Assembly: GCA_002862465.1 (NCBI GenBank)
Contig: PKDD01000137.1
Coordinates: forward strand, 18,155 to 82,154
Length of the DNA stretch: 64,000 nucleotides
Reading direction: 5' to 3'
DNA from: Haliea sp.
GTDB taxonomy: Bacteria > Pseudomonadota > Gammaproteobacteria > Pseudomonadales > Halieaceae
The notes under the pieces are model-generated. The model worked only from the letters and a program-made list of their open reading frames with translations. It was not told the DNA's origin and did no database searches. The translations under genes were made by a program, and so were the position numbers. Below, in pieces: positions 12,507 through 63,185 of this stretch (positions are counted from its first letter, which is position 1; each line of letters begins with the position of its first letter).

Positions 12507-15275
12507 ATGGATAAAACATTCCAGCCCGCTAACATTGAAACCCGCTGGTATCAGGAGTGGGAAGACAAAGGATACTTTGCCCCCCAAGGTGGAGAACAAT
12601 CCTATAGCATCATGATTCCCCCGCCTAATGTGACTGGCAATCTCCACATGGGGCATGGATTCCAAGAAGCCATCATGGACGCCCTTATTCGATACCATCG
12701 TATGTCTGGCTGCAACACACTCTGGCAGGCCGGCACCGATCACGCGGGTATAGCCACGCAAATGGTGGTTGAGCGACAGCTAGAAGGACAAGGAATTAAT
12801 CGTTATGACCTTGGACGTGAAAAGTTTGTTGAAAAAATTTGGGAGTGGAAAGAAAAATCGGGTGGCGCTATTACCCAACAGATGCGGCGTCTTGGTGCCT
12901 CCCTAGACTGGTCTCGCGAACGCTTCACCATGGACCCGGGACTCTCTAAGGCGGTCCAGCATGTGTTTATTAGACTTTATCGGGAAGGCCTCATTTACCG
13001 TGGCCAGAGACTGGTTAACTGGGATCCAGTGCTTCATACAGCTATCTCTGACCTCGAGGTCATTTCCGAAGAAGAGCGGGGCCATATGTGGCACTTCAAG
13101 TATCCACTGGCTAGCGGTGAAGGCCACCTCACAGTGGCCACCACTCGCCCCGAAACGATGCTGGGCGACTGCGCAGTAGCTGTTCACCCGGAAGACAAAC
13201 GCTACGCAAATCTTATTGGACTCGCCATTACACTGCCGCTGTGTGATCGCGAAATACCAATAATCGCTGATGACTATGTCGACCGCGAATTTGGCACCGG
13301 TTGCGTCAAAATCACGCCGGCACACGATTTCAACGACTACGAGATGGGTCGGCGGCATGGACTGCCGCTAATCAACATTTTAAACGATGATGCGGTGATT
13401 AACGACACGGCCCCAATAAGTTATCGTGGCCTTGACCGACTCGAGGCAAGGGCACGGGTGGTTGCGGATATGGAAGCATTGGGTTTGCTCGACAAAGTCG
13501 CAGACCACACGCTCAGCGTGCCGCGTGGCGACCGCTCTGGAGTCGTTATCGAGCCCTACCTAACCGATCAGTGGTATGTCGACGCCAAAAAGATGGCCAC
13601 ACCTGCCATCGCGGCCGTAGAGAATGGGGATATCCAGTTCGTCCCCAAACAGTGGGAAAATACCTACTTCGCATGGATGCGGGACATTCAGGACTGGTGT
13701 ATCAGTCGCCAATTGTGGTGGGGACATCGCATCCCTGCATGGTATGACACCGACGGTAACTTTTATGTTGGAGAGAACGAAGAGGCTGTGCGCCAGGAAA
13801 ACACGCTAGGAGACACAGTAATACTGCGGCAGGATGAGGATGTTCTTGATACATGGTTTTCTTCGGCACTGTGGACCTTTTCAACCTTAGGCTGGCCGGA
13901 AGAAACGGAGGAATTGGCCACTTTTCATCCGAGCACTGTACTGGTAACCGGATTCGATATCATCTTCTTTTGGGTCGCTCGAATGATTATGATGACATTA
14001 CATCTGCTTGAGGAGGTCCCATTCCACACCGTTTACATACATGGTTTAGTCCGCGATAGCGACGGCCAAAAAATGTCTAAATCCAAGGGCAATGTTATCG
14101 ACCCCACTGACCTTATCGATGGCATAGGACTCGAGGAACTAGTTCTCAAGCGCACCAGCGGCATGATGCAACCACAGCTTGCAGCTAAAATTGAAAAATC
14201 CACACGTCGGCAATTCCCGAGCGGGATAGAGTCTTATGGCACCGACGCATTACGCTTCACCTATTATTCACTCGCTTCGACCGGCCGTGATATTAAGTTC
14301 GACATTGGCCGCATCGAAGGCCACCGAAATTTTTGCAACAAAATCTGGAATGCTGCGCGTTATGTACTGATGAATTGCGAGAAAGAGGATTGTGGTACCT
14401 CAAACAAGGCAGCGGTGGAGTTGAGCCTGGCCGATCGATGGATTCGCAGTAAGGTTCAAGAGACGGCTGCAGAGGTGACGCGCGCGGTCGCCAACTATCG
14501 CTTTGATCTTGCGTCGCAGGCTTTGTATGAATTCATCTGGAACGAGTACTGCGACTGGTACCTAGAACTATCGAAATCTGTGCTATGGGACGATGGCGCT
14601 TCGCCCGAAGCAAAACGCGGCACGCGTCAAACTCTGATTCGTGTGTTGGAGATATCGCTGCGACTGCTGCACCCCATGATGCCGTTCATTACCGAAGAAA
14701 TTTGGCAGTCGGTGGGGGCCTTAGCTGGAAAATCAGGGCCGACCATCATGTTGCAACCCTACCCAGAGCCCAATGAACACGAGATAGACGTCCGTGCAAA
14801 TAAAGATATTGAGTGGCTTAAAATGGTTATCGAAGGCATCCGAAACATTCGTGGCGAAATGAGTATTCCTCCTGGAAAGGAGCTCTCAGTGCTTCTGCGT
14901 AATGGAGATGAAAATGATCGACAGAGACTGTCTACAAATTCGCAATATCTGAGAAAGCTGGCTAAGATTAACAAAATTGATTGGCTAGGGGTGGATGATG
15001 CGGTTCCACTTGCCGCGACGTCACTGGCTGGAGAGTTGGAGATATTGGTGCCGATGGCGGGACTCATCGATAAAGAAGCAGAAATCGTGCGGCTTAGTCG
15101 CGAAATTGGCAAACTTGAAAATGATCTAACGCGCCTACAAGGTAAGTTAGGTAATGCAGCGTTTGTCGATAAGGCACCGGCCGCTGTGGTGGCGAAGGAA
15201 CAGAATAAAATGCAAGCACAACAGCAGGCCCTTGAGACTTTGCAGCAGCGATTAAGCCGTATCCGGGATATTTGA
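12507..15275 (+). CDS. valS: valyl-tRNA synthetase
   Basis: HIGH-type motif [28 protein letters not shown]-terminal coiled coil. Confidence 0.98.
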
Positions 15276-15364
15276 GCCTTGTGTTAAGAAAACTTCCGCG
15301 TTGAAGACACTCTTTCGCTGTGCGCCTAACATACTAAAATAAAATGAAAATTCAGGGAGGGGCA

Positions 15365-15577
15365 ATGAGCGATCGAATATGTGGCGCAGTTAAGTGGTTC
15401 AATAACGCCAAGGGATTCGGCTTTATCACGAGGCAGAACAGCGAAGAGGACGTTTTTGTGCACTTCAGATCGATACAAGGTGAAGGTTTTCGCACCCTTA
15501 ATGAAGGCCAAGCGGTAGAATTTACGCTTACCGAGGGTCCTAAAGGCCTACAAGCTGAAGATGTCTTAAAGCTCTGA
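15365..15577 (+). CDS. cold-shock domain protein
   Basis: [71 protein letters not shown] upstream of ATG 15365. Confidence 0.95.
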
Positions 15578-15790
15578 ACAACGCACGTGCTGTGACGGAA
15601 AATAGGCACTGAGATTCAGGTGAACAGGCAATTAGCGCGCTATGCCACTTTTCGCAAGCGCCAAAGACGATCCACCTCGAAATACGACTTATTTTCTGTG
15701 AGGCATTCCCATCAGCGCCATTGATGTTAGAATGCTCCGCGCCTAGATCACCCTGCAATCCTGACCCTGTAAATCATTGGGAGGAAATCG

Positions 15791-16213
15791 ATGAGCCTCA
15801 TTACAAAACTTATTATCAGTCTCGTTATCGCTGTCATAGCTTCAACGCTCACCACGCTGGTCCTTGATGGGGAACCATTCAACCCGCAGATGCTGCTAGC
15901 ATTTTTTGCAGCGACAGCTGCAACCGCGCTTCTTGTTCGCGATAAGGTCACTTCTTCTGGAGAGACTAGTGAGACGGATACCCAATTCCAGTCGGCATCA
16001 GACACGTCGCGTGATCGTGGAACAGTGAAATGGTTTAATGTCTCAAAAGGTTTTGGCTTCATTACCAAGGACGATGGTGAGGAAATTTTTGTTCACTTCC
16101 GCTCTATCCGCGGTGAAGGCCGTCGTGGTCTTCGTGATGGTCAAGTTGTAAGTTTCATTGTGACCGAAAGCGAAAAGGGACCGCAGGCTGAGGACGTGCT
16201 AGGAGAGGACTGA
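15791..16213 (+). CDS. membrane-anchored cold-shock domain protein (N-terminal TM hairpin + C-terminal CSD)
   Basis: Two N-terminal hydrophobic segments (LITKLIISLVIAVIASTLTTLVL; MLLAFFAATAATALLV), a linker, then RGTVKWFNVSKGFGFITKDDGEEIFVHFRSIRGEGRRGLRDGQVVSFIVTESEKGPQAEDVL. Confidence 0.92.
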   Translation: MSLITKLIISLVIAVIASTLTTLVLDGEPFNPQMLLAFFAATAATALLVRDKVTSSGETSETDTQFQSASDTSRDRGTVKWFNVSKGFGFITKDDGEEIFVHFRSIRGEGRRGLRDGQVVSFIVTESEKGPQAEDVLGED

Positions 16214-16222
16214 CGGGAAAGT

Positions 16223-16870
16223 TCAGTCGCCGATTAGGATACTCTGCCAATAAAGACGAATCATCCGCGCGCCCTCATGCAGTATGCTTTCAGCTGAGGG
16301 TGAGCCGTCCTCTAGCGCCATCTCGACGATGAGGTAGGCTGAATCTACTGTCAGCCGTGATTGTGCCATAGTCAACTGATCAACCGGCCGGCCGATAAGT
16401 GTAGCCGCTGTCGCAGCAAGTCGATTAGAGGCGGACATGTGGGCTGCGAGTCGAGCCTCGCGCAAAGGCTCGACTGCTCGCAAAGCCTGCACCACCTCCA
16501 AGCCTCCTACCTGTTGCTGGGTGACATCGTAGATGCGCTTGAGCAAGCCGTAGATACCATCCAATAAAAAGTGTAGGTTACCCTGCTCTGAATATTCCTC
16601 AACCCACTCCTGAAAAGCCGCACTTTGTTTATCGATACATGCAGAGCTCAACGCGTTTAGGACAGCATATTTATTCGGAAAGTAGCGGTAAAGCGCAGGC
16701 ACAGAAACGCCGGCTCTCTCAGCGACCAGATTAGTAGAGATACGCTCAACCCCGACCTCAACTAGGAGCTCTGATGCGGCCATGAGAATTGCTTCATACG
16801 TGCGCTTAGCCCTCTGCTGCTTCGGCTTATTTTTTCCTGTAAGTTCAACCCGCTCCTTGAACCTAACCAT
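16223..16870 (-). CDS. TetR-family transcriptional regulator
   Basis: N-terminal HTH RTYEAILMAASELLVEVGVERISTNLVAERAGVSVPALYRYFPNKYAVLNAL. Confidence 0.92.
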   Translation of the reverse strand: MVRFKERVELTGKNKPKQQRAKRTYEAILMAASELLVEVGVERISTNLVAERAGVSVPALYRYFPNKYAVLNALSSACIDKQSAAFQEWVEEYSEQGNLHFLLDGIYGLLKRIYDVTQQQVGGLEVVQALRAVEPLREARLAAHMSASNRLAATAATLIGRPVDQLTMAQSRLTVDSAYLIVEMALEDGSPSAESILHEGARMIRLYWQSILIGD

Positions 16871-17211
16871 GCCTGGTTACCTTTCTTGCTCGACAATACT
16901 AATTTAAATGTCTAAAAGGCCATCGTATCCTAGCGAACAAACGTGTTCCAGCGTCACCATCTGATCGAGCCAAAATAAATAGGCATAACCTGATGGGGCA
17001 CGGCGTATAATCGAAGTATCATCGCGGCGTCCAGCAAGTTACATAATTTAGTGGCAAATGTTGTGGACCCCGGCGAACAATACTTTTATTCTCGCACGCG
17101 GTTTCTGCAGTGTTTGAACATATGCAACGTGAACCAAACCCTTGCAAATTGAAAGGAATTACCTTGAATAAGAGTAAACCGATAACAGGACACCGGTTTC
17201 GCGGCGTTACG

Positions 17212-17787
17212 ATGCCCACCAGTTCTCATCCATTAATTAGGCAGGTTAGGCGCGAGGGCGCTAAACCCTCTATACACGGCAATAAACTCTGGAAATCTAG
17301 TCGCCTGCTCATAGACTACTTGGGCAAAAATCGGCCGGAACATAGCAACACGGTTATTGATGTCGGCTGCGGCTGGGGGATTTCTGGTATCTGGTGTGCC
17401 AAGACATTGGGTTCTCGGGTGACATCTGCTGATGCGGACCCAGATGTATTTCCATACTTACAAGTATCCGCTCTCCTGAACGGAGTCTCCACTGCATCCC
17501 TCGTATCTACCTTCGAAAAATTAACGACCAAGCAGTTGTCTCAGTTCGATATGCTGATCGCTGCAGACATCTGTTTCTGGGATGAATTAGTGGACCCTGT
17601 TTTCAATATGGTCAATCGAGCGGTCAAGGCCGGGGTAAAACACATTGTGATCGCTGATCCAGAGCGCTCAACCTTTTTTGACATGGCAAAGCGCTGTGAA
17701 GAGCGTTTCTCTGCTGAGGTTATCGAGTGGAAAACTCTCAAGCCAGTCGAGGCGCGTGGTGCTCTGATGATTTTGCAAAATGCGTAG
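17212..17787 (+). CDS. class I SAM-dependent methyltransferase
   Basis: Motif I VIDVGCGWGISGIW, motif II-like VTSADADPDVFPY, FDMLIAADICFWDEL. ATG 17212 preferred over 17110. Confidence 0.8.
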   Translation: MPTSSHPLIRQVRREGAKPSIHGNKLWKSSRLLIDYLGKNRPEHSNTVIDVGCGWGISGIWCAKTLGSRVTSADADPDVFPYLQVSALLNGVSTASLVSTFEKLTTKQLSQFDMLIAADICFWDELVDPVFNMVNRAVKAGVKHIVIADPERSTFFDMAKRCEERFSAEVIEWKTLKPVEARGALMILQNA

Positions 17788-50957: not shown

Positions 50958-51755
50958 TTATCTGTTGTTTTCAATACTGAGGATGAATTCACGTAAGGCG
51001 ACTAGCACCTTGTGCGGGGCCTCAATAGGCAACATATGTCCATAGTTGTCTAGCACCGTCAATTCGGCACTCAATGCTTCGGCAATCGCTTGACCAGATC
51101 CCATTGGCGTCATTTTATCTTGGCCTGCCAATATCATCGCAGACGGCGCGCTTATCAGTCTCGCAGCACCCTCGCCCCCACTGTAATCAGCGCAGCATTG
51201 CAGATCGACAGCTAAGGGGTTGCTACCCATGATTTTCCGCCCAATGGCAATTGGCTGCATACCCGGAGTTGGACTCACTCCTAAGTGCGTTTGATAACCG
51301 AAACCCCACTGCAACATCATCTCAGCGGCTTTTACGGCTGACTCTTTAGCAGTATCAATCAACACTGGATTAACGGGTATAGCGCCGGCTGTAGCAACAC
51401 CAATCAAGGATTTCACTACTGTTGGTTTCAGTTTTGTTAGCTCTAGCGCAGTTAAAAAACCTTGCGAATGTCCAACGATATGCGCCTCTTCAACGCTCGC
51501 TGCAGCGAGTAGATCAGATAACCAGTGAGCCGAGTCTTCTACAGTCTTGCATGGCGCACCGCTAGACAATGAGTGTCCTGGAAAGTCTGGTGCCAACACG
51601 CTAAACCCATTATAGGCAAACCAGCGCGTCTGCAACGCCCAACTACGATGATCTAAACCACTGCCATGCAAAAAAACCACGGTGGGAAGGTTTACATCGA
51701 AGGTTTTTCCGCCCGTAGCCACATGAGTTTTAAATCCTTTTATCTCCAGCTTCAC
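50958..51755 (-). CDS. alpha/beta-hydrolase
   Basis: PTVVFLHGSGLDHRSW, nucleophile elbow VGHSQGF, LAGQDKMTP, DNYGHMLPIEAP. Start overlaps the upstream MetY-like stop. Confidence 0.92.
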   Translation of the reverse strand: MKLEIKGFKTHVATGGKTFDVNLPTVVFLHGSGLDHRSWALQTRWFAYNGFSVLAPDFPGHSLSSGAPCKTVEDSAHWLSDLLAAASVEEAHIVGHSQGFLTALELTKLKPTVVKSLIGVATAGAIPVNPVLIDTAKESAVKAAEMMLQWGFGYQTHLGVSPTPGMQPIAIGRKIMGSNPLAVDLQCCADYSGGEGAARLISAPSAMILAGQDKMTPMGSGQAIAEALSAELTVLDNYGHMLPIEAPHKVLVALREFILSIENNR

Positions 51756-53062
51756 GATTGCGACTCAGCAGCAAATTGGGCGGCTTTTAAACCTCTAGAG
51801 AAATCTGCCTGAATATCTTTAATGCCCTCAATGCCGACCGACACACGAATGAGATCCTCGCTGATACCAGCTGCCACCATCGCATCAGGGCTTAGACGAG
51901 AATGCGTAGTACTTCCAGGATGGAGAACAAGCGTTCTTGAATCGCCAACATTGGCGAGGTTTGATGCCAACTGCAGTGCATTAATAAATGCGCCGCCACC
52001 TGAACGTCCGCCAATCACGCCAAAGCAAAGCATCGAACCGGCTCCATTTGGGAACAATTTTCGTGCAACCGCGTTGCTTGGATTGCTGGCCAAGTCAGGG
52101 TGATTAACCCACGTGACTTGTTCTTTAGATTGTAACCACGTCACCATCTCTTTGGCATTGGCAATATGCTGCTTCATACGCATATTTAGCGTCTCTATTC
52201 CCTGCAGCAGCAGGAATGCCGTATTTGCGCTCATACAGGCCCCTACGTCTCGCATGGATTCTGCACGAATTTTCATCGCCAAAGCGCTAGGGCCGAACTC
52301 CTCCCAAAACCTGATACCATGAAAAGGCTCATAGGGTTCCGTCAATTCAGGGAAGCGTCCACTCGCTTCCCAATCAAAATTACCCCCGTCAACAACCACA
52401 CCACCGACCGCAGCACCATGCCCGCCCATCCACTTGGTAATCGAATGTACGACCACATCAGCACCAGACTCGATCGTTTTACATAGCCCCGGAGGCGCAA
52501 AAGTAGCGTCTACTACAACTGGAACTCCATGCTTGCTGGCAACAGCACTGATTTGAGGCAAGTTAGCTACTTCCAGACCTGGATTGCCGATTGATTCGCA
52601 AAACACCATTTTAGTATTCTCACGGATAGCGTCGTGTAATGCGGCTTGATCGTTAATCGAGACAAAAGTAGTTTCGATACCGAGACGCTTCAATGTGTGC
52701 CGTAAAAGGGTCGCAGTGGAACCATAAATTTGCCCCGATGAAACGATATGATCCCCGGCCGAACACAATGTAATAAACGTTGTAAATAACGCACTCATGC
52801 CTGAGGCAGTGCAAATGGCACCACTCCCGCCTTCCAACGCAGCAATACGTTGCTCCAAAACTGCAACCGTCGGATTAGATATACGGCTGTAAATATGGCC
52901 TCCTTGCTCAAAATTAAAAAGAGAGGAAGCTTCGTCAACCGTATCAAATACATATGACGTCGTTTGATAAATAGGCACCGCCCGCGACCCATGATCGCTC
53001 TCAGGCACGTAACCGCTATGTAGCGATATCGTATCGGGGTGGTAAAAAGAAGATCGGGTCAT
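51752..53062 (-). CDS. metY: O-acetylhomoserine sulfhydrylase-like PLP enzyme (Cys/Met metabolism family)
   Basis: TISLHSGYVPESDHGSRAVPIYQTTSYVFD, PLP-lysine segment VVHSITKWMGGHGAAVGGVVVDGGNFDW, LHPGSTTHSRL. Confidence 0.9.
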   Translation of the reverse strand: MTRSSFYHPDTISLHSGYVPESDHGSRAVPIYQTTSYVFDTVDEASSLFNFEQGGHIYSRISNPTVAVLEQRIAALEGGSGAICTASGMSALFTTFITLCSAGDHIVSSGQIYGSTATLLRHTLKRLGIETTFVSINDQAALHDAIRENTKMVFCESIGNPGLEVANLPQISAVASKHGVPVVVDATFAPPGLCKTIESGADVVVHSITKWMGGHGAAVGGVVVDGGNFDWEASGRFPELTEPYEPFHGIRFWEEFGPSALAMKIRAESMRDVGACMSANTAFLLLQGIETLNMRMKQHIANAKEMVTWLQSKEQVTWVNHPDLASNPSNAVARKLFPNGAGSMLCFGVIGGRSGGGAFINALQLASNLANVGDSRTLVLHPGSTTHSRLSPDAMVAAGISEDLIRVSVGIEGIKDIQADFSRGLKAAQFAAESQS

Positions 53063-53080
53063 GCGACTACTCCGCTAATG

Positions 53081-54196
53081 TTAAACTAATTGGTCAAAAT
53101 CAAAAGGGATTGAATGGAAAAGACTGGTTTGCCCGTCGATGGTAATACTGTCGTTCTTTGCTAAGTATGTGAGCGGCAACATAGCAATTGCGAGATTTTT
53201 GTTGTATCTGAATGACCATGCCTGCGAGCGAATCTCGCCAATAATCTCACCATCGACTTCGATGTCGCTACCTCCTAAACGGCTAGGCTGCATATGTGGC
53301 GACCTATCGAACGCTAGCCCAACAAGTTTCCGCGTCTGCTTTCCCGCCATCGCTTTAAGCGCAGGCAGACTCAGACTCTCGATATCTGCATCAAGATCCA
53401 AATATGAATCTAAACCACACTCAAATGGCGTATCGAATTCATCCATATCATTACCATACGATAGCAGGCCAGACTCAAGCCGCTCATTTCCTTGGGGGCA
53501 GCCAGAGCGCACGTATAAATCTTCGCCGTTAGCAAACAGCTCGTCCCAAAGGGCTTCTCCCAGAGACCAATCACACATGTATATCTCAAACCCACCTTGC
53601 TTACTCCAGCCCGAACGCGCGACGTACATTTCTACACCGCGAAACTCAAGCATTTCTCCTTTGAAGAAACGGATACCGCGCACTTTCTCACCAAATACTC
53701 TAGCCATTAACTCCTCGGACTTTGGACCTTGAACCGCCAAAGGACACACATCCGGCTCGAATACTTTCACATCTAAGCCGTAGCCTTGGACTAGACCCTG
53801 GGCAAAAAATTTAACGTCGCTATCAGACACTGACAGCCAAAACCGGTCTTCCGTAAGTTTAATAATAATAGGATCGTTCAAGATAAAGCCTGCAGCATTG
53901 CAAATAGGACCATATTTCCCCTGCAATAGTTCGATCTTGGATAAATCACGTGGCGTCATCAGTTGAGCCAATTTCGCGGCATCAGGCCCATTGAGTTCGA
54001 CCTGACGCTGTCCAGATACGTCCCATACCTGAACATGCTGACACAAGTGCCAATAATCACTCTCGGGCGTATCAAATAGCGTGGGCAATAGCATGTGGTT
54101 ATACACTGTATAGCTTGTAACTCCCGCTTGCTCGACTCGGTCAGAGTATGGCGTGGTGCGCACACGGCGGTTGAAAGAAAGCAATTTTGAATTCAT
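53081..54196 (-). CDS. dmdA: GcvT-fold methyltransferase, DMSP demethylase (DmdA)-like
   Basis: RRVRTTPYSDRVEQAGVTSYTVYNHMLLPTLF, DYWHLCQHVQVWDVSGQRQVELNGPDAAKLAQLMTPRDLS, ARSGWSKQGGFEIY, ERLESGLLSYGNDMDEFDTPFECG correspond segment by segment to remembered Pelagibacter DmdA. Clade membership not verified. Confidence 0.8.
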   Translation of the reverse strand: MNSKLLSFNRRVRTTPYSDRVEQAGVTSYTVYNHMLLPTLFDTPESDYWHLCQHVQVWDVSGQRQVELNGPDAAKLAQLMTPRDLSKIELLQGKYGPICNAAGFILNDPIIIKLTEDRFWLSVSDSDVKFFAQGLVQGYGLDVKVFEPDVCPLAVQGPKSEELMARVFGEKVRGIRFFKGEMLEFRGVEMYVARSGWSKQGGFEIYMCDWSLGEALWDELFANGEDLYVRSGCPQGNERLESGLLSYGNDMDEFDTPFECGLDSYLDLDADIESLSLPALKAMAGKQTRKLVGLAFDRSPHMQPSRLGGSDIEVDGEIIGEIRSQAWSFRYNKNLAIAMLPLTYLAKNDSITIDGQTSLFHSIPFDFDQLV

Positions 54197-54270
54197 AGAC
54201 CCGCCCCTTTAGAGATCGGCACTACCGCCTAACGGCAATGTGAAAGCCCTTTTTACTGGGCACTGTTTAA

Positions 54271-55692
54271 TCAAACTGAAAAACCACCGAGTTTAGTCTC
54301 TAGGTATTCGCCTAACCCTTCTCGGGCGCCTTCCCGCCCTAGGCCACTTTCGTTCATGCCACCGAACGGCGCTGCCGCACTGGTAGGATTGATATCGTTG
54401 ATACCAATAATACCAAAATTGAGTGCCTCGAAGGCTCGCACCGCGCGCGACAAATTTTGCGTATAAACATATGCAGCCAAGCCGTAGTGCGTATTGTTTG
54501 CCATTTCGATTACGTCATCATACGCATCGAAAGGAATGATCGCCGCAACAGGACCGAAAGTTTCTTCTCGATAGATCAGCATGTCCTCACTCACGTTGCT
54601 CAGCACTGTTGGAGCATAAAAATTTCCCGATGCATAAGCATCTCCAGATAAAGCCTTTCCGCCGCTGTGTAAAATTGCACCTTTTTTCAAGGCGTCTTCA
54701 ACCTGACAAGACACTTTTTCGACAGCCGCACTATTGACCAGCGGGCCGATTGAGACGCTAGGATCTAAACCGTTACCAGCTTTCATCTTAACGACACGCT
54801 CGGTAAAGGTCTGAACAAATGAGTCCAAAATAGCGCGCTGAACAAAAATCCGGTTTGGGCTAATACAGGCTTGCCCGGTATTTAGAAACTTCACCAGTGA
54901 TGCGCCTTTAGCCGCGTGCAATGGATCCGCATCGTCAAACACAATAAAAGGCGCATGACCGCCAAGCTCCATGGATACGCGCTTAAGCTGCGGTGCAGCG
55001 TCTTGAGCAAGCTTTTTACCAACAGCAGTAGAGCCTGTGAAGGTCAGTTTTTTAATCTTTATATTAGTGCAAAATTCATCGCCTATTGGAACAGGCTCTG
55101 ATGTGGTGACTAGGTTTGCAACGCCCGCGGGGACACCCGCTTCATGTAAAATGTTAAAAACAGCAATAGCGCACAGAGGGGTTGCCTCTGCAGGTTTCAA
55201 CACAATCGTACAGCCCGCCGCAAGCGCTGGCGCGACTTTACGTGTAATCATTGAAATCGGATAGTTCCACGGTGTTATTGCCGCGACCACTCCAAGTGGC
55301 TGATAACGAACTATAAAGCGTTGATCAGCTCTGGCCGATGGAATAGTTTCGCCATATACACGCTTAGCCTCTTCAGAAAACCATCGGAGGAAATCGGCCG
55401 CATATTGCACTTCATTGAGTGCAGCCTTCAGTGGCTTGCCCTGCTCACGCGTCATTAGGTCAGCCAACATTGGCTTACGCTCTATCATCAAATCGTAGGC
55501 TCTTTGCAGAACTTCAGCACGCATGTAAGCGCTTGCGGTCGACCATGAAGAGAACGCGGTGTGCGCTGCATTAATAGCAAGTATCGCTTGGCTTTTATCA
55601 CCATCAGATACCATGCCAATGGCTTCACCCGTTGCCGGATTTGTGACTCTGAATTCTCGCTGTGTCTTAACCCATTCGCCGTTGATATACAT
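54271..55692 (-). CDS. NAD(P)-dependent aldehyde dehydrogenase, succinate-semialdehyde dehydrogenase type
   Basis: ITPWNYPISMITRKVAPALAAGCTIVLKPAEATPL, MELGGHAPFIVFDDAD, NTGQACISPNRI, ETFGPVAAIIPF. Confidence 0.93.
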   Translation of the reverse strand: MYINGEWVKTQREFRVTNPATGEAIGMVSDGDKSQAILAINAAHTAFSSWSTASAYMRAEVLQRAYDLMIERKPMLADLMTREQGKPLKAALNEVQYAADFLRWFSEEAKRVYGETIPSARADQRFIVRYQPLGVVAAITPWNYPISMITRKVAPALAAGCTIVLKPAEATPLCAIAVFNILHEAGVPAGVANLVTTSEPVPIGDEFCTNIKIKKLTFTGSTAVGKKLAQDAAPQLKRVSMELGGHAPFIVFDDADPLHAAKGASLVKFLNTGQACISPNRIFVQRAILDSFVQTFTERVVKMKAGNGLDPSVSIGPLVNSAAVEKVSCQVEDALKKGAILHSGGKALSGDAYASGNFYAPTVLSNVSEDMLIYREETFGPVAAIIPFDAYDDVIEMANNTHYGLAAYVYTQNLSRAVRAFEALNFGIIGINDINPTSAAAPFGGMNESGLGREGAREGLGEYLETKLGGFSV

Positions 55693-55956: not shown

Positions 55957-56142
55957 TTAAAGCGACTTCACCTTTTTCTTGCCACAGCGAGCACAGTTAT
56001 AGATGGTTATCAATTTGCCTTGCTTAACATCAAACTGCTTTGCCTTGTCCAGTTTCCATTTATGATGGCCGTGGCGGCACAGAGTGCTACCCTTGTGCTT
56101 TTCCTTAAGTGAAAGTTTTCGAAAAGGAATAACGTCAGACAT
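55957..56142 (-). CDS. small Cys/His-containing (zinc-ribbon-like) protein
   Basis: MSDVIPFRKLSLKEKHKGSTLCRHGHHKWKLDKAKQFDVKQGKLITIYNCARCGKKKVKSL; Cx2H and CARCGKKK motifs; directly upstream of the glpK 3' end on the same strand. Confidence 0.7.
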   Translation of the reverse strand: MSDVIPFRKLSLKEKHKGSTLCRHGHHKWKLDKAKQFDVKQGKLITIYNCARCGKKKVKSL

Positions 56143-56160: not shown

Positions 56161-57651
56161 CTAAAGCAAAGCGCGTTGCAATGCATCATTCCAACTCGAG
56201 AAGCGCTGCCTCCGAGCACGTGCACTGATGGTCAGCGAGAATTCTCTCTCCGCCCGCCAGATTTTTTTTACCTCTGCCGGGCTCTCCCAAAGACCCACAC
56301 CGAGACCAGCGAGGTAGCAAGCTCCGGCCACGGTAGTTTCAATCACTCTTGGCCGAATGAGTCGGCGACCGAGCAAGTCCGCCTGAATCTGCATCAGCAA
56401 ATTATTGACTGCAGCCCCGCCGTCTACTCGCAGCGGTTTCATGCGCTTACCCAAATCACGCTCCATCGCACGCAAAATATCCGCATTTTGCAATGCCATC
56501 GCATCAAGTGTCGCGCGAGCGATATGACCTCTCTCCGTGCCGCGCGTTATGCCAGTTAAGGTGCCGCGTGCATCAGGGGCCCAGTGGGGAGCACCCAGTC
56601 CTGTTAATGCGGGTACGAACTCTACCCCCCCGTGATCCTCAACCTGCAGTGCCAACATTTCGATATCGGGAGCATTTTTGATCATCTTAAGCCCATCGCG
56701 CAGCCATTGAACGGCAGCGCCACAGACAAACGCTCCGCCCTCGAGAGCGTATACCAACTTCCCCTTCTCACCTAACTGCCAGGCTACAGTGGTCAGCAGG
56801 CCCGAATGGGAGTGCAGGCGCTCCGCCCCGGTATTCATCAGGATGAATGAGCCGGTACCGAACGTGCACTTAGCGTCACCGACATCAAAGCACGCCTGAC
56901 CAAAGAGAGCCGCCTGTTGGTCCCCGGCCATACCAGAAATGGGAATACCATCAGGCAGGTTAGCAACTCCGTGGGTACGGCCAAGAATTCCACTAGACGG
57001 AACAATGGCAGGCAGAATGTCCCGCGGCACATCAAACAGGGACAGGAGGTGCTGATCCCAGCGTCCCGTTTTTATGTTCATTAGCGAGGTGCGCGAGGCA
57101 TTAGAAGCGTCCGTGGCGTGCACATCACCCCCCGTGAGTTGCCAAACAAGAAAACTGTCTATGGTACCTGCGGCCACACGCTTGTTAGTGACTGCCTTCG
57201 ATATGCCCGCTGTATTTTTTAGTAGCCAGCGGTATTTACTGGCAGAAAAATATGGATCCAGAACCAAGCCGGATCTGCGCTTAACGGCATTTTCATGTCC
57301 TGCGGCCCGCAAGGACTCGCAGAACTCTGAGGTGCGCCGGCATTGCCACACGATGGCATTATTGAAAGGTTCACCGGTTTCCTTGTCCCACAAGAGAGAC
57401 GTCTCGCGCTGGTTAGTAATCCCGATTGCAACGATCTCGCTGGACTTGCAGATACCTTTGCGCAAAATTGCACGAATCCCCTTTGCCACCGAACCCCAAA
57501 TATCAGCGGGCCGCTGCTCTACCCAACCGGGACGAGGATAGATTTGCGGAAACTCATAGTTGACGCGTGCGCGCAGTTTACCCCTGGCATCCATCAAGGC
57601 AACGGTGCTGCCTGTCGTCCCCTGATCAATACCAAGAACAAACTTACTCAT
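56161..57651 (-). CDS. glpK: glycerol kinase
   Basis: GIDQGTTGSTVALMD, YPRPGWVEQRPADIW, TNQRETSLLWD, GLVLDPYFSASK, GMAGDQQAALFGQ, LRVDGGAAVNNLLMQ. Confidence 0.94.
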   Translation of the reverse strand: MSKFVLGIDQGTTGSTVALMDARGKLRARVNYEFPQIYPRPGWVEQRPADIWGSVAKGIRAILRKGICKSSEIVAIGITNQRETSLLWDKETGEPFNNAIVWQCRRTSEFCESLRAAGHENAVKRRSGLVLDPYFSASKYRWLLKNTAGISKAVTNKRVAAGTIDSFLVWQLTGGDVHATDASNASRTSLMNIKTGRWDQHLLSLFDVPRDILPAIVPSSGILGRTHGVANLPDGIPISGMAGDQQAALFGQACFDVGDAKCTFGTGSFILMNTGAERLHSHSGLLTTVAWQLGEKGKLVYALEGGAFVCGAAVQWLRDGLKMIKNAPDIEMLALQVEDHGGVEFVPALTGLGAPHWAPDARGTLTGITRGTERGHIARATLDAMALQNADILRAMERDLGKRMKPLRVDGGAAVNNLLMQIQADLLGRRLIRPRVIETTVAGACYLAGLGVGLWESPAEVKKIWRAEREFSLTISARARRQRFSSWNDALQRALL

Positions 57652-57653
57652 AT

Positions 57654-59081
57654 CTACTTACCGAAACCTTCCACTGCTTTGATCTCAAGAAAATCGGTAA
57701 AACCATGGCTACCCCACTCACGGCCATTACCCGATTGCTTAAAGCCACCAAAAGGCACGTTGAATCCGCCCGAGGCCCCATTGATATGCACATTACCAGC
57801 GCGGATCCTTGAAGCCACTTCGCGGGCGTGATCAAGGTCACCGCTTTGCACGTAGCCCGCCAATCCATAGGGCGTGTCATTAGCAATACGAATAGCCTCT
57901 TCTTCGGTTTCGTAGGGGATCATGGTCAGTACCGGACCGAAAATTTCTTCACGGGCGACAGTCATTTCATTATTAGCATCAGAAAAAATCGTCGGTCGAA
58001 TGAAGTAGCCTTTATCTAGACCTTCGGGACGACCTAATCCCCCAATCACGACCTTTGCACCCTCCTTTATACCTTGATCAATCAGCCCCTGAATCTTATT
58101 GAACTGCACTTCAGAAACCACCGGCCCCATAGTTGTCGTCTCTGCCGCCGGGTCTCCTACAACAACCGACTCTGTAACCTTAGCGGCTATAGCTTCAGCC
58201 TCGGCAAGCTTGGCCGCAGGCACCAACATACGCGAAGGCGCATTGCACGACTGCCCAGTATTGGTGTACATATGTCTGACGCCACCAGCGACAGCTTTCT
58301 CCAAATCAGCATCGTCTAAGATAATATTAGGTGATTTCCCCCCCAGTTCCTGCGTCACACGTTTCACCGTGGGCGCAGCATTTTGTGCCACCAGAGAACC
58401 GGCGCGGGTAGATCCTGTGAAAGACATCATACTCACGTCTGGGTGCTTTGACAGCGCCGTGCCCACTACCGGACCATCCCCATTAACCATATTGAACACG
58501 CCGGCAGGCACTCCCGCTTCATGCATGACCTGTGCAAACAAATAGGCCGATAAAGGGGCGACTTCGCTGGGCTTCAGCACCATCGTACAGCCCACGGCCA
58601 GCGCCGGCGCAACCTTGCAGGAAACCTGATTAACGGGCCAATTCCACGGGGTAATCAGACCACAAACGCCAATCGGCTCCTTAAAAACACGATGCTCGCC
58701 CAAGTCCTCTTCAAACTCAAAAGTCCGCAGGACCCTCAGCGCCTCCTCCAAATGCCCCTGCCCAGTGTAAGCCTGTGCCGTAGTTGCTAGCGTGTGGGGA
58801 GCACCCATCTCTTCACGAATCGCATCGGCAATATCGAGATAGTGTTTCTGGTAGACCGCGATACACGATTCAAGTAATTCAATCCGCTCCTGCGTGCTGG
58901 TCCGACTGAACGTCTGAAACGCCTCTTTAGCCGCAGCGACGGCCTTATTGACATCAGCCTCGGTGCCCATGGATATGCGTCCACAGGCTTCCTCTGTCGC
59001 TGGATTAATCACATCAAGGCTCTTCGGAGTGGCGGGGTCTACCCATTCGCCATTTATATAGAACTGCATATTGTCGCGCAT
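57654..59081 (-). CDS. aldehyde dehydrogenase family protein
   Basis: LITPWNWPVNQVSCKVAPALAVGCTMVLKPSEVAPL, QELGGKSPNIILDDADLE, NTGQSCNAPSRML, EEIFGPVLTMIPY. Confidence 0.93.
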   Translation of the reverse strand: MRDNMQFYINGEWVDPATPKSLDVINPATEEACGRISMGTEADVNKAVAAAKEAFQTFSRTSTQERIELLESCIAVYQKHYLDIADAIREEMGAPHTLATTAQAYTGQGHLEEALRVLRTFEFEEDLGEHRVFKEPIGVCGLITPWNWPVNQVSCKVAPALAVGCTMVLKPSEVAPLSAYLFAQVMHEAGVPAGVFNMVNGDGPVVGTALSKHPDVSMMSFTGSTRAGSLVAQNAAPTVKRVTQELGGKSPNIILDDADLEKAVAGGVRHMYTNTGQSCNAPSRMLVPAAKLAEAEAIAAKVTESVVVGDPAAETTTMGPVVSEVQFNKIQGLIDQGIKEGAKVVIGGLGRPEGLDKGYFIRPTIFSDANNEMTVAREEIFGPVLTMIPYETEEEAIRIANDTPYGLAGYVQSGDLDHAREVASRIRAGNVHINGASGGFNVPFGGFKQSGNGREWGSHGFTDFLEIKAVEGFGK

Positions 59082-59262
59082 TGTTATTCTCCTAAATTAA
59101 AGTTCGCAGAGTTACGCAGTTTAAGCACTCTCAACCCCACTGACTAGTACTGAGTCCGTTCGAGCGCGGGTTTTTGTAGGTTAGACGACATCTGTCGTTG
59201 TTTGTCGCCTAAAAATCGAGCAAAATCGGCGTCTCAGTTCACTGTCTCAGAGATCAATAGCC

Positions 59263-60399
59263 ATGGATACCGAAGAGTTGACCTTGTTTCGCGATATGGC
59301 GCGTCGCGCCCTAGAAGCGGAAATTTCTCCGCATATTGGGCAGTGGGAGGCCCAGCATATGGTGCCCAGAGCATTGTGGCGCACGCTGGGGCAGGCAGGG
59401 CTACTGTGCCCTGATATGCCAGAAGAGTACGGTGCTGCGGGGACCGCGCCTGATGTCACATTTGCAATACTGGAAGAAATGTCCCGTATGGGTTTTGGCG
59501 GCATCGCATCGGGCTACAGTATCCACAGTAACATCGTGGCACCTTACATAAAGCATTTCGGCACTGAAGAACAGAAGTCGCAATGGTTGCCCAAAATGGT
59601 CAGCGGCGAAGTCCTCGGCGCGCTCGCTATGACAGAGCCCAGTGCTGGATCAGATGTGCAGAGCATTCGCACCAAAGCAGTCAAAGATGGAGACGAGTGG
59701 ATACTCAACGGGTCTAAGATTTTCATCACCAATGGCATGCTGGCTGATATTGTCATCGTCGCCGCAATTACGGATCCTGGCAAAGGCGCCAAGGGCACTT
59801 CACTGTTTATTGTAGATGCATCGCTAGAAGGCTTTGCGCGCGGCAAAAAAATCGAGAAACTTGGTCAGCACACGTCTGATACTGCAGAGTTGTTCTTCCA
59901 AGACATTCGTTTGCCCGCTTCCGCACTGCTGGGTGAACTCAACAAAGGCTTCGTCATTATGATGGCAGAGCTGCCACGAGAACGTCTTGGCATCGCAGCT
60001 CAGGCCGTTGCAGCTGCGGAAGGCGCGCTAGACATAACCGTGGATTACGTATTGGAACGCAAAGCCTTCGGCCAAACTATAGCCAGCTTTCAAAATACCC
60101 GCTTCACATTAGCCGACGTAAAAACCGAAATCGCTATCAACCGCGCCTTCTATGAAAAGTGTGCTGATGAGTATACAGAGAAAAAGCTCACCTCAGAAGA
60201 CGCTGCAATGCTGAAATATGCCAGCACCGAAATGCAATGCAAAACTATCGACCAGTGCTTACAGTTATTCGGTGGATACGGTTACACCACAGAATATCCT
60301 ATCTCCCGCTTTTATGCCGATGCGCGTGTCCAAAGAATATATGGAGGCACGTCCGAAATCATGAGAGAACTGGTCGCGCGCTCGATCTTGGGCCGCTAG
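59263..60399 (+). CDS. acyl-CoA dehydrogenase
   Basis: ALAMTEPSAGSDVQSIRT, WILNGSKIFITNG, CLQLFGGYGYTTEYPISRFYADARVQRIYGGTSEIMRELVAR. Confidence 0.95.
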   Translation: MDTEELTLFRDMARRALEAEISPHIGQWEAQHMVPRALWRTLGQAGLLCPDMPEEYGAAGTAPDVTFAILEEMSRMGFGGIASGYSIHSNIVAPYIKHFGTEEQKSQWLPKMVSGEVLGALAMTEPSAGSDVQSIRTKAVKDGDEWILNGSKIFITNGMLADIVIVAAITDPGKGAKGTSLFIVDASLEGFARGKKIEKLGQHTSDTAELFFQDIRLPASALLGELNKGFVIMMAELPRERLGIAAQAVAAAEGALDITVDYVLERKAFGQTIASFQNTRFTLADVKTEIAINRAFYEKCADEYTEKKLTSEDAAMLKYASTEMQCKTIDQCLQLFGGYGYTTEYPISRFYADARVQRIYGGTSEIMRELVARSILGR

Positions 60400-60411
60400 G
60401 GGCAGAGTTCA

Positions 60412-61194
60412 TCATACCAGCCCCAACATCTGGACGATCCCATGGCTATGCCCTGCGGTATATCCCCCGTCGACCACAAGAGTATGACCAGTAACGTAAC
60501 TGGAGTCATCCGATGCAAGAAAATACGCTGCGCCGGCAATTTCCTCAGGCTGGCCCAGCCGACCTACTTTCGTCTCACGGATGACATCAGCCTTCAGCTC
60601 CGGCATTAGGTCCATCACATCATTAAGCAAAGGTGTGTCGATAAAACCAGGGCAAATCGCGTTGCACCGAATACCCATTCGTCCATAATCAATAGCGACA
60701 TTCTTGCTCAGCATCACGACCCCACCCTTTGAAGCGTTATAAACGCTGCCGCCCTCAGTACCATTAAGGCCCTCGACACTAGCGATTGTGATAATGCTGC
60801 CTGAACGCTGTGCCGTCATTACATCCAACACCGCCTTGATGGACAAAAAAGTGCCCTTCAGGTTGACGTCGATGACACGATCCCACACGTCCTCATCCAA
60901 CATCCCCACAGGTCCGCCGTCGCCAAGACCAGCAGCCGTCAGTAAAATATCAATCGCTCCGAATTCGTTTAACGTATCGGCAGCTACCACTTTTTGCGCG
61001 GCACCATCGGTGACATCGACCTGATGAAAGCGACTAGCGGGCGCCAGTACTTCAACAGAAGCCCAAGCACTAGACATATTCCGGTCTACACCAATGACCG
61101 TAGCGCCTTCAGTAGCGTAACGCCGCGCACAGGCCAAACCGATACCGGAGGCTGCTCCGGTTACGATAGCCACTTTGTTTTTCAGTTGGGACAT
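60412..61194 (-). CDS. short-chain dehydrogenase/reductase
   Basis: AIVTGAASGIGLACARRYA, LLTAAGLGDG, VYNASKGGVVMLSKNVAIDYGRMGIRCNAICPGFIDTPL, YVTGHTLVVDGGYTA. Confidence 0.95.
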   Translation of the reverse strand: MSQLKNKVAIVTGAASGIGLACARRYATEGATVIGVDRNMSSAWASVEVLAPASRFHQVDVTDGAAQKVVAADTLNEFGAIDILLTAAGLGDGGPVGMLDEDVWDRVIDVNLKGTFLSIKAVLDVMTAQRSGSIITIASVEGLNGTEGGSVYNASKGGVVMLSKNVAIDYGRMGIRCNAICPGFIDTPLLNDVMDLMPELKADVIRETKVGRLGQPEEIAGAAYFLASDDSSYVTGHTLVVDGGYTAGHSHGIVQMLGLV

Positions 61195-61206
61195 ATCCGC
61201 ACCTCT

Positions 61207-63147
61207 CTAAGTTTTAAATTGATAATCAGCGCTGTTGACTTCCTTGGTCCAGCGCCACATGTCAAGAATCTTCCAGGGCCACAACAGGGTAACCTTGCCT
61301 TCAGCATTTTGATAAAAACTGGTTTTAATAGAATCATGCTCCCACACTAACCGCGCATGTAATTCTCGAAAGCGCCTCTGGTAATCCTCGTGCACATCTG
61401 CCTTGCACTCAATGGACTCATGTTTTGACTGCATTAGCGTCTTGAGACACGCCATAATGTACCGGATCTGGCACTCGCCATTGAAAATCAGACTACCCCC
61501 AAACGCGAGGTTAGTTCCGGGACCATACATGCAGTAGAAATTGGGGAATTCAGAAACTGTTATTCCAAGGTACGCCGAGGGTTCAATGCCCCACTTATCC
61601 GATAGCAATTTCCCTCCCCTGCCTTTAATTTCCATCGGCCATAAAAACCTGTCGGTCTCGAAACCAGTAGCATAAATGACAATATCTGCGGGATAAAAGG
61701 TGCCATCACTCGCCGTGACACCGCCAGCACTGACGCTCTCCACTCCTTGAGTGACCAGACCGACATTGCTACGTTTCAATGCTGAGAGCCAACTGCCGTT
61801 GTCCTGTAATGTGCGTTTACCCATCGGAGCATAGTCCGGCGTCACCTTTTTCAACAGTTCCTCGTCATCACCGACCTGCCCTTTAATATGATCAAAAAAC
61901 ATCTGGTATACAAAATCGTTCATCTCATTGATAGAGCGCTCCTGATGCGGCCATTCGGGATCAACAAAAACCGTGTCATAGGCACCATCACAGGCAGGCC
62001 AAAAAATCAGGAAGCGGAACCAGCGAGTGTAGAAAGGCAAGTTTTGCAAACACCATTTCTTACCCTGTGGCACCTCTTGATGATAGATCGGATTCTCGAA
62101 CATCCACGGCGCTGAACGTTGAAATATCGTCAGTTCTCCAACATCACTGGCAATCGTTGGGACTAATTGAAAAGCACTGGCCCCAGAGCCTACTACCACT
62201 ACCTGCTTACCACTACAATCAATACTGTCGTCCCAGTCCGCAGAATGGCACCACTGCCCCGCAAAGGAATTCACGCCTGGAATATCTGGCAATACTGGAC
62301 GATTTAATTGACCAACCGCACTGATGATAGAGTTCGCAACGTACTGGGCTTTAACACCATCCGCGTCGATAGTACTGACCGTCCACTCATTATTTACCTC
62401 ATCGAACACAGCACCGCTGACTTCTGTGTTGAATCGAAAATGCTTCTCCAACTGGTGGTGATTTACGACGCCTTCGAAATACTGCTGTAACTCCTTTTGC
62501 TGCGAGAAATATTGCGTCCAGTGATGTGCTGGCTCGAAAGAGTAGCTGTACAGGTGATTGCCGACATCAACGCGCGCGCCTGGGTAACGATTTTCAAACC
62601 AGGTACCACCCACCGCCGCATTTTTCTCGATAACAACAAAGGGAATGCCTGCCTCCTGAAGTCGATAGGCTGCTAACACGCCCGACATACCCCCGCCGAT
62701 GACCAGAACTTTATGCTGCGCTCGCGCCCCTGCGGAAACTTCATCACTGCAGACATCACTGCGCTGGTCTATGCCGTCAAGTTCCATTTCCTCCAGCATC
62801 ATGGGTACATAGTCTTCGGGCACATCGCCTGCCACGATGAAATTCATCATACGATGAATGGTATCCCTAGAAGGCGCGGCCGGCAGTTTGCAACCGCTAT
62901 CACGAAAGTCCTTGATGACGTCAAGCGCCTGAGTCCGCACCGCCGCCTTGTCATCTTCGGACATATAACCTTGATACTCGTTAATAAAGACGCCTGCAGG
63001 TCGGATAGTGCCGTCGAGGAGGCTTGCATCGCCACTCATGTGAACCATGCTCATCATCAGCGTAGGAATACTCGCGTTCTCCAACGCGCGAGCAATTAAG
63101 GCATTATCCTCGGGAATAGAAAAATTGGTCTGTGCAGTGCCTGACAT
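61207..63147 (-). CDS. flavin-containing monooxygenase, type I Baeyer-Villiger (BVMO) class
   Basis: FAD motif VLVIGGGMSGVLAAYRLQEAGIPFVVIEKNAAVGGTWFENRYPGARVD; BVMO fingerprint FAGQWCHSADWD (FxGxxxHxxxW[PD]); NADPH motif VVVVGSGASAFQL. Start at ATG 63147 has GGAG upstream. Confidence 0.93.
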   Translation of the reverse strand: MSGTAQTNFSIPEDNALIARALENASIPTLMMSMVHMSGDASLLDGTIRPAGVFINEYQGYMSEDDKAAVRTQALDVIKDFRDSGCKLPAAPSRDTIHRMMNFIVAGDVPEDYVPMMLEEMELDGIDQRSDVCSDEVSAGARAQHKVLVIGGGMSGVLAAYRLQEAGIPFVVIEKNAAVGGTWFENRYPGARVDVGNHLYSYSFEPAHHWTQYFSQQKELQQYFEGVVNHHQLEKHFRFNTEVSGAVFDEVNNEWTVSTIDADGVKAQYVANSIISAVGQLNRPVLPDIPGVNSFAGQWCHSADWDDSIDCSGKQVVVVGSGASAFQLVPTIASDVGELTIFQRSAPWMFENPIYHQEVPQGKKWCLQNLPFYTRWFRFLIFWPACDGAYDTVFVDPEWPHQERSINEMNDFVYQMFFDHIKGQVGDDEELLKKVTPDYAPMGKRTLQDNGSWLSALKRSNVGLVTQGVESVSAGGVTASDGTFYPADIVIYATGFETDRFLWPMEIKGRGGKLLSDKWGIEPSAYLGITVSEFPNFYCMYGPGTNLAFGGSLIFNGECQIRYIMACLKTLMQSKHESIECKADVHEDYQRRFRELHARLVWEHDSIKTSFYQNAEGKVTLLWPWKILDMWRWTKEVNSADYQFKT

Positions 63148-63185
63148 TACGAGAAACTCCTGATGTACTATTTTCGGCAACGACC

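Follow-up and report, generated by a model that had tools for sequence, protein, structure and literature searches.

Organization of the gene cluster

The window, by which we refer to the entire 64,000-nucleotide stretch of Haliea sp. DNA that was analyzed, harbors between positions 50958 and 55692 four genes on the minus strand, which are apparent in its list of open reading frames and which encode an aldehyde dehydrogenase (ALDH), a member of the DMSP demethylase family DmdA, a member of the O-acetylhomoserine sulfhydrylase family MetY and an alpha/beta-hydrolase (Table 1). The genes for ALDH and DmdA are separated by 74 bp and those for DmdA and MetY by 18 bp, while metY and the hydrolase gene overlap by 4 bp. 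Order, strand, the second gap and the overlap had been described in the same way in an earlier note on this DNA, which had placed the first gap at 75 bp. As remarked in the same note, none of the genes dmdB, dmdC or dmdD is located beside the dmdA-like gene within the window. A scan of the cluster with Rfam returned zero matches, so no riboswitch or RNA control was seen, equivalent scans for promoters and terminators gave no signal above chance, and no regulator or riboswitch tying the four genes to sulfur was found. Upstream of the cluster, a small open reading frame of 61 residues with CxxH and CxxC motifs resembling a zinc ribbon is located between the genes for ALDH and glycerol kinase (55957-56142, minus strand). 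It is followed by a block (56161-63180) encoding glycerol kinase, a second ALDH, an acyl-CoA dehydrogenase on the opposite strand, an SDR protein and a flavin monooxygenase, whose order is also kept in a locus of the same genus (L041).

Table 1. Genes of the cluster, with positions in the window and the basis of their assignment.
Feature	Position	Strand	Basis
Aldehyde dehydrogenase, SSADH/BADH-like, 473 aa	54271-55692	-	PF00171; TIGR01780 below cut-off
DmdA, THF-dependent DMSP demethylase family, 371 aa	53081-54196	-	NF009133 equivalog; 3tfh; DmdA clade
MetY, O-acetylhomoserine sulfhydrylase family, 436 aa	51752-53062	-	TIGR01326; 7kb0; genome paralogues
Alpha/beta-hydrolase, 265 aa, subfamily tied to metY and the SAR11 dmd operon	50958-51755	-	alignment, trees, AlphaFold/Foldseek

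Family assignment of DmdA, MetY and ALDH

The DmdA-like protein scores 441.2 bits against the NCBIfam equivalog model of DMSP demethylases (NF009133) and thus passes its cut-off of 410. Its best match among solved structures is DmdA of P. ubique (3tfh, E=1e-101), followed at a distance by a GcvT (7e-24), and the segments that the earlier note had listed as shared with Pelagibacter DmdA are genuine in an alignment to 3tfh. In a tree of 57 rows, a 100/99 branch separates 52 DmdA rows, including the window protein, from two GcvT-like groups that contain GcvT and sarcosine-oxidase-like or SoxA-like proteins. The assignment as DmdA-like that the note had made is therefore upheld by model score, nearest structure and clade, and membership in the GcvT or sarcosine-oxidase families is ruled out by NF009133 and the tree. 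The DmdA rows fall into four groups, whose branching order the 57-row tree does not resolve: SAR11 with P. ubique DmdA, Roseobacter with other alphaproteobacteria, SAR92-like gammaproteobacteria and the group of the window protein, with the latter comprising 24 rows (100/99) in this tree and 38 in a larger one. At the level of sequence, the window protein is as close to the enzymes of P. ubique and Ruegeria (46-48% identity) as these are to each other (46%), and it contains 61 of the 71 residues that are fixed across SAR11, Roseobacter and SAR92-like DmdAs. Its subclade is altered at some positions that are fixed in other DmdAs, such as Cys93, which is replaced by Gly.

MetY passes the cut-off of TIGR01326 (565.8 versus 495.1 bits) and finds its best PDB match in the O-acetylhomoserine sulfhydrylase 7kb0. 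The genome encodes a second MetY on contig C76, which is 44% identical to the copy in the cluster, and another enzyme of the Cys/Met family on contig C4. The use of sulfide and of methanethiol cannot be distinguished from the sequence of a MetY, and the protein could use sulfide in place of methanethiol.

The ALDH had been described as SSADH-type. SSADH is indeed its nearest family, but with 581.5 bits it falls below the curated cut-off of TIGR01780 (646.35), which restricts the assignment to an aldehyde dehydrogenase. Upstream of their dmdA genes, the Arenicella loci L080/L112 and L114, locus L111 and the same-genus locus L041 encode homologues with 76-89% identity, and the enzyme probably oxidizes an aldehyde end product, either acetaldehyde or malonate semialdehyde.

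A conserved dmdA-metY operon in relatives

Within the DmdA clade of the window protein, 20 of 32 loci have metY downstream of dmdA in the same orientation, mostly at a distance of 10-60 bp, compared to none of 70 loci of the other DmdA clades (Fisher p = 3e-13, a value that is descriptive only since the loci are related). This linkage rules out a chance neighborhood of dmdA and metY, and its conservation in relatives shows the same for the four-gene cluster, with the hydrolase gene following metY in their dmdA-metY loci. A fuller version of this arrangement is observed in Arenicella, where the operon reads ALDH, dmdA, metY, hydrolase, a fusion of 3-hydroxyacyl-CoA dehydrogenase and enoyl-CoA hydratase (3HCDH-crotonase) and a dmdB-like ligase. 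It is complete in L080/L112 and L114, and present without the ALDH in L081, L084, L115, L119 and L120. The fusion protein consists of 770 residues, with 3-hydroxyacyl-CoA dehydrogenase joined to a crotonase domain in which an alignment shows both catalytic glutamates to be kept. The ligase (543 residues, L080:14664-16295) finds its best PDB match in 6ihk (E=3e-75), a DmdB, with 8hsy scoring nearly equal, and both its nearest structure and its linkage to dmdA are those expected of a DmdB. Each of the four DmdA clades includes loci with such a dmdB-like ligase in the vicinity of dmdA, in 35 of 70 loci for the clades other than the window's. The earlier note had concluded that the intermediate steps must be encoded elsewhere or that the substrate is different. 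In the window's lineage, ligase and fusion are absent from the cluster, but in its relatives they share the operon. The steps that are missing from the window cluster are thus normally encoded in the adjoining genes of this operon.

Conservation and possible roles of the hydrolase

No named family fits the hydrolase. Its AlphaFold model (pLDDT 92.9) displays a plain alpha/beta-hydrolase of PcaD/esterase-like fold, for which Foldseek detected the enol-lactonase 2xua as best match and enol-lactonases and esterases as nearest kinds, with 5egn as another lactonase. Ser97 and His240 are invariant among relatives and Asp213 is the likely catalytic acid. A function as MetX-like acyltransferase producing O-acetylhomoserine is disfavored by the MetX homologue found elsewhere in the genome and by the 50 best structural matches, none of which is described as an acyltransferase.

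Among loci around dmdA, all relatives of the hydrolase with E < 1e-40 reside in dmd-type loci, at least 22 of the dmdA-metY type and 14 from SAR11. In the latter, the gene is located between dmdB and dmdA, and a metY match is absent from these loci. Further relatives identified in a class-wide search directly follow metY in 15 of 15 loci with enough flanking sequence, with no dmdA there, and 10 genomes with such a metY-hydrolase pair show no DmdA match at 1e-60. The tree of the hydrolase splits into these three contexts (dmdA-metY, SAR11 dmd and metY alone), in agreement with the tree of MetY. The protein, which the earlier note had listed but passed over in its interpretation, is a conserved part of the cassette and an old partner of metY, and its contexts share methanethiol and methionine as common factor. 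Of the metY-hydrolase pairs, the one nearest to the clade linked with dmdA (L211, genome G464) is followed by an AraC-type regulator; dmdA is absent from this locus and, at 1e-60, from the genome.

Since SAR11 is devoid of DmdD (PMC5069961), the hydrolase is a candidate for the missing step that releases methanethiol, and a role at or just after this release would be a sensible, if weakly founded, guess. That the protein and its SAR11 relatives free methanethiol or hydrolyze the following thioester where DmdD is absent, with the cassette version handing methanethiol straight to MetY, we consider unlikely. At least equally likely is a housekeeping function of the thiolactone type next to MetY. 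Quite possibly, the hydrolase has nothing to do with DMSP and accompanies metY as a housekeeping partner, acting for instance on homocysteine-thiolactone or homoserine esters, as suggested by its position behind metY in every checkable locus away from dmdA and by the lactonases among its structural neighbors, although the 14 SAR11 loci, which place a member of this subfamily between dmdB and dmdA and show no metY match, speak against it.

Origin of the cassette and the remaining pathway in the genome

The G+C content at third codon positions (GC3) amounts to 44.5-47.8% in the four cassette genes compared to 51-57% in their neighbors, and DmdA, MetY and the hydrolase of the window nest with Arenicella-type proteins in the respective trees. 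Both the low GC3 and the placement in the trees point to a probable acquisition of the cassette from a donor resembling Arenicella. The same-genus locus L041 contains a cluster shortened in the same way, in matching surroundings, and in an order-level sample a close DmdA was otherwise found within the window's family only in this same-genus genome. These features fit a donor cassette that either arrived without its last two genes or lost them later, and the cassette is apparently a conserved, transferable unit.

The genome of the window organism (G000, 3.3 Mb, 97.8% complete) contains a single DmdA. The earlier note had pointed to the rest of the genome as a place where dmdB, dmdC, dmdD or acuH might be found. 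Our search covered the cassette ligase, the fusion, dmdC and acuH-like crotonases: there is no close dmdB, with the best match to the cassette ligase at 33-34% identity, and the fusion is matched only at 33% over part of its length. The only PF12806 dehydrogenase of the FadE/DmdC type, on contig C118, is 43% identical to SAR11 DmdC, with higher scores for 8pns (935 bits) than for 6ijc (644 bits) placing it nearer to other acyl-CoA dehydrogenases. Generic ligases are present, as are generic crotonases, of which the best acuH-like one is 38% identical to the SAR92-like protein. The genome also encodes a MetX homologue for the production of O-acetylhomoserine, which is split over two contigs, and a strong match to BCCT transporters. 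In the absence of ligase and fusion from the cluster in its genus, the lineage would therefore either rely on generic enzymes or use DmdA differently.

Proposed pathway and alternatives

We consider it reasonably likely that the four genes of the window represent an abridged version of a cassette through which gammaproteobacteria exploit DMSP as a source of sulfur and methyl groups. The computation established the families of the genes, their conserved order, their clade and their composition, and from these we infer all catalytic steps. DmdA would shift one methyl group of DMSP to THF, yielding methyl-THF and methylmercaptopropionate. A CoA ligase, together with a dehydrogenase of the FadE/DmdC type and a crotonase, would convert the latter into a thioester that collapses to methanethiol and a C2 or C3 aldehyde, with ligase and 3HCDH-crotonase fusion provided by the same operon in relatives and presumably by generic enzymes encoded elsewhere in the window organism. 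MetY would couple methanethiol to O-acetylhomoserine to form methionine, so that the toxic gas is not lost, the ALDH would oxidize the aldehyde, and the hydrolase may well process a thioester, or else some different methylthio intermediate, near the release of methanethiol. A route from DMSP to methionine had already been proposed in the earlier note and is favored by the family and clade of DmdA, the dmdA-metY linkage, the MetX homologue and the dmdB and hydratase fusion of relatives. It has to be qualified because the window lineage lacks the last two genes, because the hydrolase is a conserved part of the arrangement and because no more than 33-50% of the methionine of Ruegeria stems from the direct capture of methanethiol (PMC7157515).

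This latter observation also bears on a different use of the cassette in the window's lineage, which we regard as unlikely, where DmdA would scavenge methyl groups for the C1 pool as methyl-THF and methylmercaptopropionate would be excreted, with MetY mainly converting sulfide to homocysteine for methylation by methyl-THF. Such reassembly accounts for half to two thirds of the methionine of Ruegeria (PMC7157515), ligase and fusion are not at the locus and only weakly matched in a nearly complete genome, and the 10 sampled genomes with metY-hydrolase pairs but no DmdA match point in the same direction. These arguments are countered by the generic ligases, crotonases and FadE/DmdC-type dehydrogenase in the genome, by the known breadth of DmdB and DmdC (PMC5395565) and by the retention of metY and hydrolase with dmdA in the window's genus. 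It is still less probable that the substrate of the DmdA-like protein is a related onium compound instead of DMSP and that the remaining pathway is adjusted to it, an idea that draws on a locus of the same clade (L042), in which a methyltransferase of the MttB type and a corrinoid protein are encoded immediately downstream, and on the DmdA-like protein of SAR92 strain H455, which failed to restore methanethiol production and illustrates that family likeness is no proof of DMSP activity, whereas SAR92 DmdAs only 35-40% identical to reference enzymes did restore it (PMC10746254); the clade is, however, as near to proven DmdAs as those are mutually, the curated cut-off of NF009133 is passed and a dmdB-like ligase and crotonase fusion are linked in relatives.

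Comparison with known systems

The SAR11 operon of Pelagibacter (dmdC-dmdB-hydrolase-dmdA) shares with the cassette the DmdA family, a same-subfamily hydrolase beside dmdA (32-34% identity over full length) and a dmdB-like ligase that is 53% identical to the one of Arenicella. It is distinguished by its gene order, the inclusion of dmdC and the lack of a metY match at the locus, and SAR11 metY constitutes a separate locus under SAM-riboswitch control (PMC5069961). The SAR92 cluster dmdA-acuH-dmdB-dmdC (PMC10746254), which is represented in our sample by L049, L050, L054 and L055, resembles the cassette in its gammaproteobacterial dmdA with crotonase and dmdB located downstream, but its DmdA belongs to a different clade (36-39% identical), metY, hydrolase and ALDH are absent, and AcuH is a stand-alone protein instead of the fusion found in cassette relatives. 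In Roseobacter, DmdA (about 48% identical) is linked to the acryloyl-CoA reductase AcuI (PMC5395565), with metY absent within 6 kb of the loci examined. Finally, the metY-hydrolase pair of Gammaproteobacteria has the two genes side by side in the order of the cassette, at identities of about 50-64% for MetY and 29-48% for the hydrolase, but lacks dmdA at the locus and forms separate clades in both trees.

DMSP is an abundant marine sulfur compound, whose demethylation sets the share of sulfur that enters marine food webs as opposed to being lost as gas. While DmdA, MetY, dmdA operons that include acuH and dmdB, and the capture of methanethiol by MetY were already known (PMC10746254, PMC5069961), the conserved dmdA-metY-hydrolase(-fusion-dmdB) operon and the sharing of its hydrolase with the SAR11 operon did not turn up in the limited literature searched. 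Titles and abstracts of open-access papers on dmdA with O-acetylhomoserine or with Arenicella do not describe the arrangement, which is weak evidence of novelty. It is debated whether methanethiol enters methionine directly, a route of limited share in Ruegeria (PMC7157515), and a conserved dmdA-metY operon implies a lineage specialized for this reaction and thus a natural test case. The hydrolase in common with SAR11, where DmdD is missing (PMC5069961), turns a gap in the pathway into a question about a single gene, and if its proposed role were true, the enzyme that is missing from the DMSP demethylation of SAR11 would have been found.

Variation in related loci

Related loci carry additional genes. 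In L115, dmdA is directly preceded on its own strand by a gene of the HalD-like Fe/2-oxoglutarate halogenase/dioxygenase family PF23169 (8028-8864), with a protein of similar start at the same position in L081 (7857-8690) and genes of equal size there in L119, L120 and L166. In L042, the genes for dmdA, metY, hydrolase and fusion are followed by those for a methyltransferase of the MttB family and a B12-binding corrinoid protein (15048-17342), suggesting a wider onium-demethylation cluster. A 7-kb contig of a Sulfurimonas sp. MAG (Campylobacterota, L128) contains dmdA and dmdB-like genes in addition to a second dmdA-like gene, reflecting either a binning error or a transfer. In Oceanospirillaceae-type loci (L044, L122, L124 and L126), two tandem dmdA genes precede metY, whose products are about 50% and 54% identical to the window protein and one of which may act on a different substrate.
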